Virus record (IMG/VR): IMGVR_UViG_3300020465_000044
Coordinates: 1-38,033 of that record
Length of the DNA: 38,033 bases
Strand: one strand, 5' to 3'
DNA from: a virus
This document shows positions 28,056 to 34,668 of the stretch, in pieces. The notes beneath the pieces were generated by a model. That model ran no database searches, was not told the origin of the DNA, and saw only the letters and a list, made by a program, of their open reading frames with translations. Position numbers and translations under genes: made by a program. Within the stretch, counting starts at the first letter, position 1. Each line of letters begins with the position of its first letter.

Positions 28056-28140
28056 ACAGATTAAAAATGATCTCAAAAGAAACCCTATTGGTACACCACT
28101 TCGAAAAAGGGATAGAAAGAATAGACCTTCCTCTAAATAA
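28012..28140 (+). CDS. Small basic protein, unknown function
   Basis: This 42-residue peptide is very basic (MISKKEIKDHLKKLKQIKNDLKRNP...RKRDRKNRPSSK), starting inside the previous gene. It may bind nucleic acid. Its last codons and stop lie inside the 28125 terminator stem-loop, so ending translation and ending transcription are physically linked there. Confidence 0.5.
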   Translation: MISKKEIKDHLKKLKQIKNDLKRNPIGTPLRKRDRKNRPSSK

Positions 28141-28155
28141 CTAGAGGAAGGTTTT
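28125..28155 (+). terminator. Rho-independent terminator
   Basis: ACCTTCCTCTA (28125-28135) and TAGAGGAAGGT (28142-28152) are a perfect 11-bp stem with a 6-base loop, followed by TTT. It closes the replication operon and directly precedes the gene at 28161. The left arm and loop also spell TCTAAATA (28132-28139), close to the late -10. Confidence 0.88.
28132..28139 (+). promoter_or_regulatory. Possible late promoter inside the terminator
   Basis: TCTAAATA differs from TATAAATA at one base and is 21 bases before the 28161 gene, the same spacing as the better late promoters here. It lies in the left stem and loop of the terminator. It may restart transcription of the next block, but an A-to-C change at the second position weakens it. 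Confidence 0.35.
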
Positions 28156-28160
28156 CTATT

Positions 28161-29582
28161 ATGGCTAACGTATCGTGGAGAAAATTAGGTCAGGTAAACA
28201 ACAAGGGTGATATGTATCTCTTAGTTGTTTTTGATGCTATTCATACACGTAGAGAATTACAGGTTGAGAGTCACGGTAAAGTTTTATTGACTGCACCTCA
28301 GAAAGTATATGATGACATGGAAGATGTGTTCAATGGTGATCTTCCATTTGATTCTGTTAAAGGAACTGATTCATTTAAGTCAAGATATAGTGGTGCTAAA
28401 GGAAAAGTTTTAGAAGTAAGAAAGATAGGTAAGACTAAGTTAGTAGATAAGATAGGTTTCACAAAGATTTTTAAGTCACCTGAGTTTGGAAGCAATACAG
28501 GATCAGGTGCTGGTGCAAAAGCAACAGAGATGTTTGAAAGTGCTGCATGTTGGATGACTGCTCTTGCATATCAATCTGGTGGTATTCCAGATGGATATGT
28601 TTTGAAAGAATCAGACTTTGAAGGTGTGAAAAAGCATGTAGATACAACTGCAACGTTACACGAAGCTTTTATGTTTCTGAATAATAATTCAGATTGGATG
28701 ACTTCTACTATTAAGACAGCAAACAAACTATATTCAACTAATGAATTTAAGAATCCTAAGTTCCATTTCTATAGAGGTAAGAAGGTTGTTGATGTAGTTG
28801 AAGAACATTTTAAAACTGTCAATAAGAATGAAGGTAGACCATTTTCTAACCTAAACAAGTGGACACCTGCTGATATGTACATGTGTGATTGTGATTTTGA
28901 TAATACAATGATCACAGATACAGTTCTTTTTGCTGATTTGAATACTAAGATGCAGATTTTAATTGATCAGAAGAAATTGATTGGTGTATCGTTGAAAGGT
29001 ATTGGTTCTGGTAGTGCAAATATATCTAAGAAAAATTTCATAGGAGGACCAGCAAAACAGTCAAGAAGATTTACTGGTATGAGAGCTAAAAGTTTGTTTG
29101 GTTCTATGGATGTATACTTTACAGCATCACCAGGTGATATAGAAGTACAGTTCCGTGCTACTGATACTGCTGGTAAGACATGGCAAGGTGAGGTGATGGG
29201 TGAATCAGCAAAGCATGGTAAGATAGGTGGTGGTGTATTGGATAATGTTTTAACGAAAGTCTTAGGTAACAATAAAGGATTGTTTGCTAAGACAGGTTAT
29301 TCAAAGACATCTGCAATAGCATCTGCTGCTAACACATTAGATAAGAAAATTTTTAAATTAGCCACAGATAACAAGGATATGTTTGAGGATGATGAAGAGA
29401 TAACACTTGATAGAATCTCTGGCATGCCACCAAAGTGGAAGTTTGCTAAGTATCTTGGTCTTGTCTTTGCTGATATCATGAGAACTGCTGATACAGATGA
29501 TAAACATGATATTGCTACAAAATTATATCTGTATGCAACATCAGAATCAGATCAATCTGCACCATATATAAAGGTTTCTTAA
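28161..29582 (+). CDS. Conserved phage protein, possible PD-(D/E)XK-like
   Basis: This 473-residue protein is not recognised from a named T4 gene. It starts with a beta region (MYLLVVFDAIHTRRELQV), and has a central segment NLNKWTPADMYMCDCDF...LFADLNTKMQILIDQKKLIGVSLKGIGSG near 230-300. This W-x-PAD...LN...GVSLK pattern resembles the Asp and (D/E/S)xK parts of restriction-endonuclease-like folds; this is an inference, not a firm call. Later parts are beta-rich (AKSLFGSMDVYFTASPGDIEVQFRA) and helical. It is the first gene after the 28.1-kb terminator and is coupled by TAATG to the ligase-like gene. It could also be a structural protein. Confidence 0.75.
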   Translation: MANVSWRKLGQVNNKGDMYLLVVFDAIHTRRELQVESHGKVLLTAPQKVYDDMEDVFNGDLPFDSVKGTDSFKSRYSGAKGKVLEVRKIGKTKLVDKIGFTKIFKSPEFGSNTGSGAGAKATEMFESAACWMTALAYQSGGIPDGYVLKESDFEGVKKHVDTTATLHEAFMFLNNNSDWMTSTIKTANKLYSTNEFKNPKFHFYRGKKVVDVVEEHFKTVNKNEGRPFSNLNKWTPADMYMCDCDFDNTMITDTVLFADLNTKMQILIDQKKLIGVSLKGIGSGSANISKKNFIGGPAKQSRRFTGMRAKSLFGSMDVYFTASPGDIEVQFRATDTAGKTWQGEVMGESAKHGKIGGGVLDNVLTKVLGNNKGLFAKTGYSKTSAIASAANTLDKKIFKLATDNKDMFEDDEEITLDRISGMPPKWKFAKYLGLVFADIMRTADTDDKHDIATKLYLYATSESDQSAPYIKVS

Positions 29583-30796
29583 TGGCTAACGTAACACAGT
29601 TAAAACATCTAGAACATTTGGAAGATGAGATGCTCAACTATGGAGTTTCTGGATGTAAAGCATCTGTTAGTTTCTTACAGGAACTACGAAAGATGCTTGG
29701 GTGTGATAATAGTACAGGTTTCATGCAAACTAAGTGGGATGGAGCACCTTCTATAGTTTGTGGTAAAGATCCTGCAAATGGACATTTCTTTGTAGGTACT
29801 AAAGGTGTCTTTGCAAAGACTGAACCTAAGATATGCTATGGTCCTGACCAAATTGATGAATGGTATGGTGATAAAGCAAACTTAGCTGCTGGTTTGAAAC
29901 TTGCTTTGGAATATTTTTCTCAGTTAGGTATTGATGGTGTGATACAGGGTGATTTTTTATTCACTTCTGCCACAAGAAAAACAGAAACTATACATGGTGA
30001 GAAGGTTTATACATTTACACCAAACACTATTACATATGCTATACCTGTAGACCATCCATTAGGTAAGCAAATTGGTCAAGCTAAGGTTGGTGTGGTATTT
30101 CATACTCATTATGCTGGTGAGAAGGATGGATGGGACATATCAAGTATGACTGCTAGACCAGGTGCTAAGGTTAAATCTAGTAAGGACGTTGTTTGTATTG
30201 AAAATGACACTCCAATGGACAGAGTTGGGTTGAATCATACTGAAGAGGTTAAGTTTGATAAGCATGTGTCAACCATTGAAAAATTGTGTGGAGATTGTGG
30301 GTATTTCCTTGATGAATTGGTGACAAATACAGGTACAACAGGTAACGAAAAGTGGCATGTTGCATCATATTTAAAACAGTTCTTCAATGCAGAGATAAAA
30401 GCAGCACGTTCTATTACTAATGTTGATGCTACTTTTGCTAGTCTCTATAATTTTTATTATGACAAGACTAAGGGTATGCTTGACAAGATAAAGACACCTG
30501 CTAATAGGGTGGCTAAGTCTGATCTTGTATATAAGAGTCAAAATTATCTAAGAGATAACCAATCTAAGTTTAAATCATTGCTTGGTCTCTATAAAGAGTT
30601 GCAGACAGTGAAGCAGATGGTTATAGATAAGTTGGATAAACTTGAGACCTTTAAAACTTTTGTTAGAACTGATCAAGGTTATAAAGTTACTGGTCCAGAG
30701 GGATATGTTATGCATAAAGACGGAGATATGATCAAATTTGTTAACCGTCTTGAGTTTTCATACAACAATTTTACTGTAGCAAAGTCATGGCGTTAA
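29582..30796 (+). CDS. Ligase-like nucleotidyltransferase fold protein
   Basis: The 404-residue protein carries the covalent nucleotidyltransferase motifs: motif I KWDG at residues 51-54 (the Lys would take AMP), a motif III-like GVIQGDFLF at 119-127, a motif IV-like EGYVMH from Glu373, and a motif V-like DMIKFVNR with Lys385. Between motif III and motif IV is a long, mainly helical stretch, unusual for a small ligase. The spacing differs from DNA ligase of T4 and I cannot say whether the enzyme joins DNA, RNA or something else. It overlaps its neighbours by one and ten bases. Its neighbour encodes an NMNAT-like protein, which also works on adenylyl groups. Confidence 0.7.
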   Translation: MANVTQLKHLEHLEDEMLNYGVSGCKASVSFLQELRKMLGCDNSTGFMQTKWDGAPSIVCGKDPANGHFFVGTKGVFAKTEPKICYGPDQIDEWYGDKANLAAGLKLALEYFSQLGIDGVIQGDFLFTSATRKTETIHGEKVYTFTPNTITYAIPVDHPLGKQIGQAKVGVVFHTHYAGEKDGWDISSMTARPGAKVKSSKDVVCIENDTPMDRVGLNHTEEVKFDKHVSTIEKLCGDCGYFLDELVTNTGTTGNEKWHVASYLKQFFNAEIKAARSITNVDATFASLYNFYYDKTKGMLDKIKTPANRVAKSDLVYKSQNYLRDNQSKFKSLLGLYKELQTVKQMVIDKLDKLETFKTFVRTDQGYKVTGPEGYVMHKDGDMIKFVNRLEFSYNNFTVAKSWR

Positions 30797-31350
30797 AGTG
30801 TAACAAGTGCTACTTCACATTTGGTAGGTTTCAACCACCTACTACAGGACATGCAGACAACTTTCGTAATGTCAGACGTACTGCTAATGGTGAGGACTAT
30901 AGAATCTATATTTCACACAGTCATGACACCAAAGGCAACAACCCATTGCCACGTGATAGAAAATTATTCTGGATGAACAAGATATTTCCAGAGCATAAGG
31001 GTAAAATATTCAGTCTTACTAAGGCAGATCCAGTAGCATGCTTACAAGATATAATGATGTCTGGGTATGATGAGGTAGTGTTTCTTGTGGGGTCTGATAG
31101 GGTTAATGCTATGCAGTGGGTGCATAAATATAATCATAAAGACTTCACTTTTCGTACTATAGAGATAAAATCTTCTGGTAGTCGAGATGCAGACGGTGAT
31201 ACGTTTACCATATCTGGTACAAAGATGAGACGTGCAGCATTTGCTGGTGATTTTAAGTCATTTAAGACAGGTATACCCACTTTAAATGACAAAGATGTAA
31301 TGACTTTGATGAGTGAAATCAAAAGTAATCTACCAAAAAATTTCAAATGA
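30787..31350 (+). CDS. NMNAT/cytidylyltransferase-like protein
   Basis: The 187-residue protein is a HIGH-type nucleotidyltransferase. The N-terminal FTFGRFQPPTTGH (residues 10-22, with TTGH) is the ATP-binding motif of nicotinamide-mononucleotide adenylyltransferases and cytidylyltransferases. The second signature ISGTKMRRAAFAGDF, near residues 140-155, is the ISSTxxR motif. A CxxC pair (CNKC, residues 5-8) precedes the first motif. The most likely role is NAD synthesis from NMN and ATP, as in NadM-like phage proteins; FMN or cytidylyl transfer is possible. It overlaps the ligase-like gene by ten bases and the next by ATGA. Confidence 0.85.
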   Translation: MALKCNKCYFTFGRFQPPTTGHADNFRNVRRTANGEDYRIYISHSHDTKGNNPLPRDRKLFWMNKIFPEHKGKIFSLTKADPVACLQDIMMSGYDEVVFLVGSDRVNAMQWVHKYNHKDFTFRTIEIKSSGSRDADGDTFTISGTKMRRAAFAGDFKSFKTGIPTLNDKDVMTLMSEIKSNLPKNFK

Positions 31351-31562
31351 AAATCTTACACAGACTTCCAGTTGATGATTGGTTTGATGACGTTCCACAC
31401 CCCCATGATACTATGCCTATAGCAACAGACCCTAATGAGAATCCTAGACCAGAAGAAGAAATCGCTGATGATATTACTATGCATGAAAAAATGTATAGGA
31501 TTGCCACAGATAAGTACAATCCCTTCTCTGTAGGTGGTTCTGAGAGTATCTCTGATAAATGA
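31347..31562 (+). CDS. Small acidic protein, unknown function
   Basis: This 71-residue protein is Pro and Asp rich (MKILHRLPVDDWFDDVPHPHD...NPRPEEEIADDITMHEKMYRIATDKYNPF) and probably partly disordered. It is coupled by ATGA to the NMNAT-like gene and to the next gene. No known domain is visible. Confidence 0.6.
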   Translation: MKILHRLPVDDWFDDVPHPHDTMPIATDPNENPRPEEEIADDITMHEKMYRIATDKYNPFSVGGSESISDK

Positions 31563-31771
31563 AGGACTTTAGAAAACTGAGAGAGCAGGCTATACGTCAG
31601 CAGCATAGACATGCTGAGGGATTCTCTGTAGGTGACAGAGTAATGAGTGCTATTTCAGGTGAAAAGGGAACCATCCACAGAACAGGTGTTAACTACGTTA
31701 TTTGTGTTACAGAGAGTGGTGACATGTTTCGTGCGTGGGTAAAGGATATTCGTACTATAAATAGATCATAG
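31559..31771 (+). CDS. Small KOW/SH3-like protein
   Basis: This is a 70-residue protein with a basic helical start (MKDFRKLREQAIRQQHRHAE), then FSVGDRVMSAISGEKGTIHRTGVNYVICVTESGDMFRAWVKDI. The VGDRV...GEKGTI...YVICV pattern is typical of small KOW or SH3-like barrels. It may bind RNA or protein; function is unknown. It ends over the TATAAATA late promoter at 31756. Confidence 0.6.
   Translation: MKDFRKLREQAIRQQHRHAEGFSVGDRVMSAISGEKGTIHRTGVNYVICVTESGDMFRAWVKDIRTINRS
31756..31763 (+). promoter_or_regulatory. Late promoter (exact TATAAATA)
   Basis: An exact match to the T4 late -10 element, 29 bases before the gene at 31792 and overlapping the end of the previous gene. Confidence 0.75.
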
Positions 31772-31791: not shown

Positions 31792-32535
31792 ATGGAAAAG
31801 CAGAAGACAGTTAACAGTCTCGCACATAACGACGACTTTTCTAAGGCTCTCATGGAGTCTTACTCACGTTGGTCTGGTGGTGACGGTTTCCAGAACACTT
31901 CGATTGCTGAGGAAGAAATTCCTACAGGACAGAAGCAGGGTGGTACTGCTTTTGCTACATTTGACACACCAATAGGATCAGTTCCTGCACCAGCATCTGA
32001 TGCATCAACTTCGATTCCTACAATAGAGAAGCAGAAACCTGATGATGGCAGTATAAAAGATCCTAAAGCAACATGTAATGGTGGTGAACCTGCTGTTGCA
32101 CTAAAGGGTTCCATGACTATGGGTCAAGGATCTATGTCAGGTGGTGTTCCACAATCTCAAGGTCAAACACTCCAGTATACTAACGTAGTTTCCAAAGAAG
32201 AAGTAGAACCAGTTGATGAATCTAAGAAAAAAGCAAAGAAAGACTACGATGGAGATGGTAAAGTAGAATCAGGCAAGGCAGAGTACTTTGGTTCTAAGAA
32301 CAAAGCCATCAAGAAAGCGATGAAGAAAGAAGACTTCGATGCTAAACAGTCAGAGCTTTGGGATGAAGCATCTAAGATTCTTACAGAACTTAGTGAGTTA
32401 ACAGAAACTACTTACACAGTTACAGGTGAGAAGTGGGAGACTGAGGACAAGCCTGTCATTAAAGAAAAGTCAGGATGTTCTACTAAAGAGAAGCAGAGAA
32501 AGAAAGCTAAAAAAATCATGGGATATGTGAAATGA
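31792..32535 (+). CDS. Putative virion protein with DYDGDG motif
   Basis: This 247-residue protein is mostly low complexity, rich in Gly, Ser, Thr and Lys. In the second half a KKKAKKDYDGDGKVESGKAEYFGSKNKAIKKAMKK segment has an EF-hand-like DxDGDG loop, a motif I associate with several cyanophage virion proteins. The C-terminal part has a helix (FDAKQSELWDEASKILTELSELTETTY) and a basic tail (KEKQRKKAKKIMGYVK). The exact late promoter just upstream supports a late, structural role. The GGxx, Lys-rich and helical modules suggest a flexible protein. Confidence 0.6.
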   Translation: MEKQKTVNSLAHNDDFSKALMESYSRWSGGDGFQNTSIAEEEIPTGQKQGGTAFATFDTPIGSVPAPASDASTSIPTIEKQKPDDGSIKDPKATCNGGEPAVALKGSMTMGQGSMSGGVPQSQGQTLQYTNVVSKEEVEPVDESKKKAKKDYDGDGKVESGKAEYFGSKNKAIKKAMKKEDFDAKQSELWDEASKILTELSELTETTYTVTGEKWETEDKPVIKEKSGCSTKEKQRKKAKKIMGYVK

Positions 32536-32696
32536 AATCATACAGACAGTTTTTAGAGTATAGATTGCCAGTAGGTGACACCTTACCTGTTAATAAGAAA
32601 GGAAAAAAGAAAAGAAAAACTGTTGAAGTGATGCCAAAAGTCCCTGATGGACCAAGAGGTAATAATAATGACGCAGACAGAGACGACAGAAAATAA
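32532..32696 (+). CDS. Small basic protein, unknown function
   Basis: This 54-residue protein starts MKSYRQFLEYRLPVG and continues with the basic stretch KKGKKKRKTVEVMPK and an acidic Asn/Asp-rich end. The MKSYRQFLE start resembles that of various phage virion proteins. It is ATGA-coupled to the previous gene and overlaps the next by 29 bases. Confidence 0.55.
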   Translation: MKSYRQFLEYRLPVGDTLPVNKKGKKKRKTVEVMPKVPDGPRGNNNDADRDDRK

Positions 32697-32837: not shown

Positions 32838-33431
32838 ATGACTTTATCAAAAGAGGTTGTATTAGAAGCATTAAGGTGCTGTAGGGATGTTTATCCTAAC
32901 GAAAAAGACTTTCTTGTCAGTAGGAAGGTGGAAGGTCACACCATTCTTGCTGTAGAAGGCACGAATGAAACAACAGATTGGATTACTAATCTAAAGTTTC
33001 TTATCAAACGTGACGATTGTCACAGAGGATTCAAGAACAATGCTAACAGGACACTAGCAGAACTAGTGGTAGCATATGAAGGATTGGATCCTAAGAGAAC
33101 ACTTGTTATCGCAGGTCATTCTCTTGGTGGAGCTACCGCAACACTTATTGCAGACTTATTATGGGAGTCAGGCAATAAGAATATTGCACTTGTAACTGCT
33201 GGATCACCTAGACCAGGTGGACGCAGACTACGCAGGAGGATCAAGGATCTTGAGCACTTGCGTTTTGTTCATGGAGATGATATAGTACCTGGAACCCCAC
33301 CATGGCTAGCAGGATATGTACACACACATCCAGTCATCAAGTTAAAAGACGAGAAGGACACCAGATTTGATGGTGTTGCTGATCATAACATGGGGTCATA
33401 CTACGAAGCAGCACAGAAATTTTATGCGTAA
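32838..33431 (+). CDS. Class 3 lipase-like alpha/beta hydrolase
   Basis: The 197-residue protein has the full class 3 lipase set. The N-terminal oxyanion-region TILAVEGTNETTDWITNLKF matches the family pattern (V-FRGT----DW--N). The nucleophile elbow GHSLGG is at 93-98 with Ser95; the acid is in HGDDIVPGTPP (Asp148); the catalytic His is His183 in ADHNMGSYYEA. It is compact compared with fungal lipases (about 270). There is no N-terminal signal peptide. Substrate is not visible; phospholipid or galactolipid breakdown is possible. It is followed directly by a lipoprotein and a membrane protein. Confidence 0.9.
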   Translation: MTLSKEVVLEALRCCRDVYPNEKDFLVSRKVEGHTILAVEGTNETTDWITNLKFLIKRDDCHRGFKNNANRTLAELVVAYEGLDPKRTLVIAGHSLGGATATLIADLLWESGNKNIALVTAGSPRPGGRRLRRRIKDLEHLRFVHGDDIVPGTPPWLAGYVHTHPVIKLKDEKDTRFDGVADHNMGSYYEAAQKFYA

Positions 33432-33828: not shown

Positions 33829-34668
33829 ATGTCTCTATACGGTAGTACCGATAGTAATGCTAACAAAACCAAAGCTGGGATTGGTGTTGCTACGGATTCA
33901 CAAACAAAAACAATTGTCTATATTGACGAAACAGAAGCAGCACTTGAGCAGAATAAGAAGCGAGGGTTGAATGCTCCTGGTTGGTGGTCATACTTCACCT
34001 ATAATGATAGCTCAGGTAGAGCACGTCATAAGGCAGAGCAGATGGTATTCATCGCTAACGGTGAAGCAAACTCTGGAGAAACACAAGCAGATGATACTCT
34101 TGCTGGTGACTTTCTTTCTACAGTTTCTATTGGTACACAACCTTCTGATGCATCTGTTGCTGCTACTAACACACAGAACTTCGCAGTTGTTGCTACTCCA
34201 ACAGGTGAAGCATCCGCAATTGATGGTGCTGCCAACGCTGGAAACACAGCAGGAAGAACTGCTGGTACATATACTGCAATAGCAGCGACAGGTGGTACTG
34301 GATCAGGTGCTACTGTTACTCTTGTAGTTGATGCTAACGGTGCTGCTGCAGCTACATTAGTTGGCAAAGGTGGTGGATACACTGACAATGATACAATAAC
34401 ACTTAGCAGAACTGGTACATATGGTGGTGCTTCAGACGTTACAGTTAATGTAAACGGAGTAGGTGCTACAGTAACATATCAGTGGCAAGTCAGCACAGAT
34501 GGTGTTAACTTCGCTGATGTTTCAACTGGAACTAATGATACTACTGCTACATATACAACAGCAGCAACAGCCGCTGGTGACAATGGCAATAAGTACAGAT
34601 GTGTAGTCGGTACATCACAAGGTGCAACTCCTGTGATTTCAACTGCTGCCACATTAACAGTTACATAA
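33829..34668 (+). CDS. Putative virion protein with Ig-like domain
   Basis: The 279-residue protein has an N-terminal head (1-95, MSLYGSTDSNANKTKAGIG..., with GWWSYFTYNDSSGRARHKAEQMVFI) and a C-terminal Ig-like domain. The first Ig strands are VSIGTQPSDASVAATNTQNFAVVATPT (about 98-125) and the later ones VTYQWQVSTDGVNFADVSTG...YRCVVGTSQGATPVISTAATLTV (about 213-279). An extra Gly/Thr-rich repeat-like module (GTYTAIAATGGTGSGATVTLVVD, GGGYTDNDTITLS) is inserted between the two. The exact late promoter just upstream supports a virion function, probably head decoration or tail fibre surface. Confidence 0.8.
   Translation: MSLYGSTDSNANKTKAGIGVATDSQTKTIVYIDETEAALEQNKKRGLNAPGWWSYFTYNDSSGRARHKAEQMVFIANGEANSGETQADDTLAGDFLSTVSIGTQPSDASVAATNTQNFAVVATPTGEASAIDGAANAGNTAGRTAGTYTAIAATGGTGSGATVTLVVDANGAAAATLVGKGGGYTDNDTITLSRTGTYGGASDVTVNVNGVGATVTYQWQVSTDGVNFADVSTGTNDTTATYTTAATAAGDNGNKYRCVVGTSQGATPVISTAATLTVT

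Follow-up and report, generated by a model that had tools for sequence, protein, structure and literature searches.

Among the closest described relatives of the locus examined here are the internal head proteins of phage T4 and two gene clusters known from cyanophage genomes. T4 IPII and IPIII begin with MKTYQEFIAE, and the ten-residue capsid-targeting sequence (CTS) of T4 uses residues 4 and 7 for targeting and residues 8 and 10 for processing by gp21 (PMC9026906). Among cyanophages, a cluster T4-GC 71 and a core cluster T4-GC 190 are known, the latter already reported as a virion protein (PMC3037559). Both are represented in IMG/VR virus record IMGVR_UViG_3300020465_000044, which covers 38 kb of a marine T4-like phage and was analysed over its whole length of 38,033 nucleotides (hereafter the window), as genes B and C of a compact block A-B-C. 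The initial annotation had presented this block as its strongest candidate for an undescribed system. As far as the locus itself is concerned this view has to be given up, since B belongs to T4-GC 71 and C to T4-GC 190: the locus and a virion-borne protein resembling nicotinamide mononucleotide adenylyltransferase (NMNAT) are already published. What our analysis points to, with rather more confidence than doubt, is a late module coupling a ligase-type enzyme B to an NMNAT-type enzyme C, loaded into the head across the family by means of a CTS and ejected with the DNA.

The three genes lie as follows in the window:

28161-29582, plus strand: gene A, 473 amino acids, family phrog_1462, with PD-(D/E)XK-like residues E126, W234xPAD238 and S277LK279; a possible nuclease.
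29582-30796, plus strand: gene B, 404 amino acids, DUF6267; candidate ligase-superfamily nucleotidyltransferase with a predicted helical insertion at about residues 219-352.
30787-31350, plus strand: gene C, 187 amino acids, CTP_transf_like or NMNAT-type nucleotidyltransferase.

The open reading frames (ORFs) overlap as had been noticed, A and B sharing 1 base and B and C sharing 10. This arrangement is maintained in the 80 closest viral contigs, on which gene order was counted: C follows B in all 76 relatives where this could be tested, with the 10-base overlap in 75, and A is recognizable in 56, its end coinciding exactly with the start of B in 56 of 56. Genes for DNA polymerase, UvsX, a gp41-type helicase and MazG are found upstream of A, with the block directly after them, and immediately beyond it come genes for head-type and virion proteins. 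Among the close relatives, the ratio of nonsynonymous to synonymous substitutions in B is about 0.1, indicating strong purifying selection.

Protein B is a full-length member of Pfam PF19782 (DUF6267; E 3e-119) and of the family T4-GC 71 / phrog_455. In an alignment of 95 diverse homologues, with identities down to 28%, the motifs that had been singled out (K51-W-D-G, QGDFLF at 122-127, E373-G and K385) are invariant or nearly so. Invariant positions are H9, H12, K51, D53, G54, P56, Q122, D124, P147, N148, H174, E373, G374, K385 and R389; P147-N148-x3-Y152 and E373-G374-x-V376 are also conserved, and the N-terminal H9xxH12 is kept together with a near-invariant E14-D15. B thus possesses motif I (KxDG), which carries the nucleotidyl-accepting lysine of the ligase superfamily, as well as motifs III, IV (EGxV) and V (K), motif III reading QGD124 with D in place of the usual E. 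Predicted secondary structure elements come in the order expected for this superfamily, and the AlphaFold (AF2) model is confident (pLDDT 88). The long helical insertion is borne out, five helices being predicted at about 219-352 between motifs III and IV; Syn9 gp183 (320 amino acids) and other shorter homologues lack part of the length.

When the B model was compared with solved structures by VIA-align, the first 31 matches were all ligase-family structures, RNA ligases first and then DNA ligases, with Z scores from 7.2 to 5.0, a Z of about 7 being by itself equivocal. The Naegleria RNA ligase NgrRnl came first (Z 7.2 over 181 residues), T4 Rnl1 scored 6.7, Rnl2 5.6 and archaeal RNA ligases 5.7-5.4, which places the nucleotidyltransferase domain of the model within this fold. 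Foldseek returned only weak LigA rows for the same model, and a sequence search of the PDB gave coiled-coil noise only. Profile-profile comparison of B with T4 Rnl1 gave no signal, so that the ligase claim rests on motifs and fold. The Pfam scan of B retrieved DUF6267 only, with no LigA-type domain binding nicotinamide mononucleotide (NMN) recognized by sequence profiles. Conserved motifs and the uniform set of RNA and DNA ligase neighbours nevertheless bear out the suggested ligase-like fold, and B is apparently an intact ligase-type nucleotidyltransferase, closest to RNA ligases as judged from its model. This assignment appears new: the libraries searched give no function for DUF6267, and we found no paper naming it in the open-access literature. 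Members of the family occur in 469 of the phage records searched, and the viral contigs that encode one number at least in the hundreds. In cellular sequence data it was found on 39 contigs, nearly all from marine metagenome-assembled or single-cell genomes; a cellular origin was discarded, these contigs being taken as phage as a group rather than contig by contig, and 0 of 14 control genomes carrying B.

The association of B with C goes beyond synteny. In resequenced S-PM2 (S-PM2d, LN828717) the two form one protein of 592 amino acids, S-PM2d138, with the motifs of both, and PHROG 455 spans both domains. A functional link between B and C is supported by this fusion and by the span of the PHROG, and the fusion reading appears new. 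We had also considered the B gene of S-PM2 as split, and dropped this idea since S-PM2d shows a single open B-C fusion. The reference record NC_006820 splits B by a frameshift relative to LN828717, by record error or as a real difference.

Protein C passes the cut-off of Pfam PF01467 CTP_transf_like (24.5 bits against 21). The TTGH and ISGTKMR motifs from which an NMNAT-type enzyme had been proposed are both present and conserved in 204 homologues, where G-R-x-x-P-x-T-x-G-H and S-x-x-K-x-R (S-x-x-K-M-R) are invariant or nearly so. With intact motifs and a profile score above the cut-off, C is, by its sequence, an NMNAT-type member of the adenylyl/cytidylyltransferase superfamily. We file it as NMNAT-type and not as NMNAT proper because its scores are far under the NCBIfam NMNAT equivalog cut-offs (21.9 of 341 bits for TIGR01526, 12.5 of 112 bits for TIGR00482). 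In Syn9 and in the methylophage Melnitz-2, C runs on into an SH3/KOW-like domain, which in the window is a separate gene (E, below). C homologues outside cyanophages reach 650-1200 amino acids, their tails being long, charged and rich in repeats (DUF5824 in Melnitz-2).

Our main new result concerns sequences outside the window, namely the N-termini of B and C homologues. A CTS pattern, M..[FY]..[FYLI][LIV].E, was picked after the homologue N-termini had been viewed and then fixed by T4 residues 4, 7, 8 and 10, whole-genome scans serving as a check on this choice. It occurs in 114 of 289 homologues of B and 55 of 255 of C, where composition shuffles give 0.2 and 0.04; these counts are not independent, many of the homologues being related. 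In minus-strand ORFs it occurs in 0 of 1641. C begins with MKKFSAFLSE|A in Syn9, MKSFLQFLKE|A in S-SCSM1 and MKNFSSFLTE|A in S-CREM2, with MKTYRQFITE|V in one S-SCSM1-type sequence; the leader of S-SZBM1 C is shorter (MRFRQFIIE|A). In many non-cyanophage lineages it is B that begins in this way, with leaders like MLRFKQYLSE|SKN or MIRFKKFIAE|SKN that are immediately followed by the conserved HMEHLED.

Whole-genome scans, our sharpest control, show the pattern in hardly any genes other than these and those of known internal or virion proteins. The T4 scan (335 ORFs) retrieved ipII and ipIII only, that of Syn9 (379 ORFs) C only, that of DLP6 (558 ORFs) B only, and that of S-CREM2 (329 ORFs) C and a S-adenosylmethionine (SAM) hydrolase only, both detected in the virion. 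In S-SCSM1 (402 ORFs) C was found with one ORF of 83 amino acids, and in Melnitz-2 (325 ORFs) the gene immediately upstream of B. The link of CTS to B and C homologues appears new, since in the open-access literature CTS and cyanophages were found together only in a T4 review, where 'cyanophage' stands merely in a cited title. The S-CREM2 hydrolase (OR473000, 3837-5081, minus strand) is a separate observation: this virion-associated protein starts with MKDFDSFLEE, a T4-like CTS, and its leader, picked out with that of C alone in the genome, suggests an ejected anti-restriction enzyme.

Published mass spectrometry detected C in virions of S-SM1 (PMC3037559) and of S-SCSM1, S-SZBM1 and S-CREM2, and the C proteins of all four carry a leader. 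In S-PM2, an early study did not detect C in virions (PMC3037559), and the fused B-C protein of S-PM2d has no leader. Leader and packaging of C thus agree wherever both are known, five phages being few.

Transcription signals before and after the block are the following:

28123-28154, plus strand: hairpin just 5' of A with a 13-bp stem, terminator-like on both strands.
28133-28139, plus strand: CTAAATA, a T4-type late-promoter-like word inside the hairpin loop.
31756-31763, plus strand: TATAAATA, a T4 late-promoter word 5' of gene F.

A strong terminator had been claimed in front of the block. The hairpin is significant (folding energy -26.2 against -15.7 +/- 3.0 in shuffles, z -3.6), but 'terminator' is only half right, because the CTAAATA word of its loop is conserved even without it: about 27 of 42 distinct relatives have the word 27-33 nucleotides before A begins, where 0.022 are expected per 150 nucleotides, and it is retained in relatives whose hairpin has decayed. 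T4 late promoters read TATAAAT(A) (PMC3037559), and TATAAATA occurs, besides its place before F, 5' of the head-protein gene at 33829. A, B and C appear to form one late operon, and with CTAAATA before A and TATAAATA before both F and the head-protein gene, the unit looks late-expressed like virion genes, to judge from its promoter motif. The initial annotation had mentioned neither the late promoter nor the capsid-targeting leaders of relatives. The 3' arm of the hairpin, AGAGGAAGG (28143-28151), probably doubles as ribosome-binding site for gene A, so that the stem could mask this site in read-through transcripts.

Protein A belongs to a conserved but diverging phage family, phrog_1462, for which a nuclease-like fold had been proposed from W-x-PAD and GVSLK. 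These residues are present (W234-x-P-A-D238 and G275-VSLK279), and E126, W234, P236, D238 and S277-L-K279 are invariant in 46 homologues. The signature resembles PD-(D/E)XK, with D238 and K279 invariant, but S277 occupies the D/E place. The predicted model of A is confident (pLDDT 90), yet its comparison with PDB structures gave no match to any solved fold, nucleases included. The proposal is not supported, the motif residues being conserved but no fold matching, and we consider A a possible, unproven nuclease. In BFVD the model matched unnamed phage proteins only, some from Campylobacter phages CP20 and IBB35; in view of these fold relatives, the family may extend far beyond cyanophages. The A homologue of S-SCSM1, ORF90, is annotated as a virion protein. 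Two candidates were rejected, a match of the A family to the restriction enzyme CfrBI (E 0.04), which belongs to scattered sub-threshold Pfam hits across all members, and S-SZBM1_139 as an A homologue, its gene being located downstream of C.

Four genes continue the module after C:

31347-31562, plus strand: gene D, a small protein of 71 amino acids; in several relatives CTS-like leaders are found in the corresponding position.
31559-31771, plus strand: gene E, a 70-amino-acid SH3/KOW-like protein, phrog_4808, starting with MKDFRKLRE|Q, a 9-residue CTS-like leader.
31792-32535, plus strand: gene F, 247 amino acids, phrog_4359, a repeat-rich family of the same module.
32532-32696, plus strand: gene G, a basic protein of 54 amino acids starting with MKSYRQFLE|Y, a CTS-like leader.

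The leaders of E and G are 9-residue variants, shorter than the 10-residue form of T4, and MKDFRKLRE of E is conserved in relatives. Proteins of phrog_4808 are labelled ribonucleotide reductase alpha subunit or NrdB in several cyanophages, and are apparently misnamed, as the size of 70 amino acids and the fusion to C contradict this label. Beyond G, 3' of the module and 5' of the head-protein gene, lies a class-3-lipase-like esterase gene (32838-33431; GHSLGG motif; phrog_21992).

Taken together, these observations lead us to propose that A-B-C would open a module that T4-like phages transcribe late. B would be a lysine-adenylating enzyme, which adenylates itself and seals broken nucleic acid, more probably RNA than DNA in view of its fold neighbours. 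C would work with B and make or restore an adenylylated cofactor or nucleotidylated product, NAD being the leading candidate. Members of the family, C in most cyanophages and B with its neighbours elsewhere, would be loaded into the prohead by their T4-like leader, which a gp21-type protease would trim after (L/I)xE. Ejected with the DNA, the enzymes could engage the entering genome or host RNA immediately, before phage gene expression, in a step of host takeover or counter-defence. Early repair or counter-defence would be the most obvious purpose of bringing such enzymes in the particle, with T4 IPI (anti-restriction) and Alt as precedents. Enzymatic activity, ligase substrate and ejection into the host are what we infer from these data. 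The same is true of packaging and delivery in the phage of the window itself, where leaders are missing from A, B and C and CTS-like ones occur on the small neighbours E and G only; in this lineage either E and G would be packed and B and C remain intracellular, or tagged partners would bring A, B and C into the head. It is a bolder and tentative suggestion, possible rather than probable in our eyes, that we are dealing with a widespread phage system in which a nucleic-acid ligase and an enzyme making NAD or a related product are carried in the capsid and injected with the genome, repairing damage that host defence does to nucleic acid or cofactor before expression starts.

Several observations weigh against delivery in the head, in addition to the equivocal Z score of B and its silent profile comparison mentioned above. 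The CTS is absent from A, B and C of the window and from those of near relatives (0 of 50 A, 0 of 79 B and 0 of 76 C), and in P-HM1, a close relative of the window's lineage, no 10-residue CTS was found anywhere among 332 ORFs. B is missing from the virion lists of S-CREM2 and S-SZBM1, and that of S-SCSM1 does not mark it as a virion protein, three lists in all, and authors of the proteomics papers allow that C may be a contaminant of CsCl preparations. B itself has no leader in S-SCSM1 and S-SZBM1, and none was found on that of S-CREM2. B and C might then be ordinary intracellular enzymes of repair and cofactor supply, virion C being carry-over and the window lineage packing nothing. The position of the block directly after polymerase, UvsX, gp41 helicase and MazG would suit such enzymes, as would the leaderless A, B and C of this lineage and the contamination caveat. 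We nevertheless find this unlikely, though it deserves serious attention, in view of the late-promoter word upstream of A, the head-type and virion proteins directly downstream, the CTS on homologues and the agreement of CTS and virion detection of C in five phages. At the other extreme, both folds could have been recruited as non-catalytic parts of the head core or virion structure. That C, and in S-SCSM1 also A, is placed in the virion would agree with such dead enzymes; purifying selection, and catalytic motif residues that show little or no variation even among very diverged B and C proteins, make this very improbable indeed.

The remaining explanations concern what the enzymes do. The initial annotation had thought of a nucleic-acid end-processing or NAD-dependent repair system. 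In such a scheme B would be an NAD-dependent ligase releasing NMN, from which C would remake NAD, so that the repair pair sustains itself while A processes ends as a nuclease. Overlap, synteny and fusion of B and C, and the superfamily of C, fit this scheme; B, however, is closest to ATP-using RNA ligases with no LigA-type NMN-binding domain recognized, C falls far under the NMNAT equivalog cut-offs and the fold of A matches no nuclease, and we consider the scheme decidedly improbable. It is also rather unlikely that C, by itself or together with partners, restores NAD depleted by a host defence, B being a passenger with a separate repair role. Phages do restore NAD against defence, and canonical salvage ends with an NMN adenylyltransferase (PMC12774641), for which C has NMNAT-type motifs. 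However, no homologue of Nampt, Adps or Namat was recognized among the genes annotated beside C in the loci examined, a PADLOC scan gave no match, and the strict coupling and fusion of B and C favour a joint task.

Several consequences follow. The ligase assignment provides a direct assay for DUF6267, formation of lysine-AMP. The CTS link turns the NMNAT-like virion proteins of cyanophages into a testable rule, namely that packing and ejection of an enzyme can be foretold from its leader, and the pattern could serve to list ejected effectors from genomes alone. The T4 internal-protein strategy, so far represented by Alt and IPI, would also cover enzymes of the repair type, in viruses that abound in the ocean.

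The locus shares features with several described systems. Phage NAD reconstitution (NARP1 and canonical salvage) has in common with it the superfamily of the last salvage step, to which C belongs, whereas here no Nampt, Adps or Namat partner was recognized and C is tied to a ligase-like enzyme. With the cyanophage cytidyltransferase T4-GC 190 (phrog_395 and phrog_3041) the relation is one of membership: C of the window is one of its short representatives and keeps the catalytic motifs, but has neither the leader at the N-terminus nor the SH3/KOW-like domain at the C-terminus that distinguish the virion protein of S-SCSM1, S-SZBM1, S-CREM2 and S-SM1. B appears to share with RNA ligases (NgrRnl, T4 Rnl1, Rnl2 and the archaeal homodimeric enzymes) the nucleotidyltransferase fold, the motif order I-III-IV-V and KxDG/EG/K; it is distinguished from them by the helical insertion of about 130 residues before motif IV, the QGD motif III, the N-terminal HxxHxED and the lack of a match at sequence level. 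Finally, the leaders of B and C homologues match T4 IPIII at residues 1, 4, 7, 8 and 10, as in the internal head proteins IPI-III and Alt. While A, B and C of the window do without the 10-residue leader, the family would differ from T4 above all in its cargo, which would consist of ligase-type and NMNAT-type enzymes instead of internal proteins or an ADP-ribosyltransferase.

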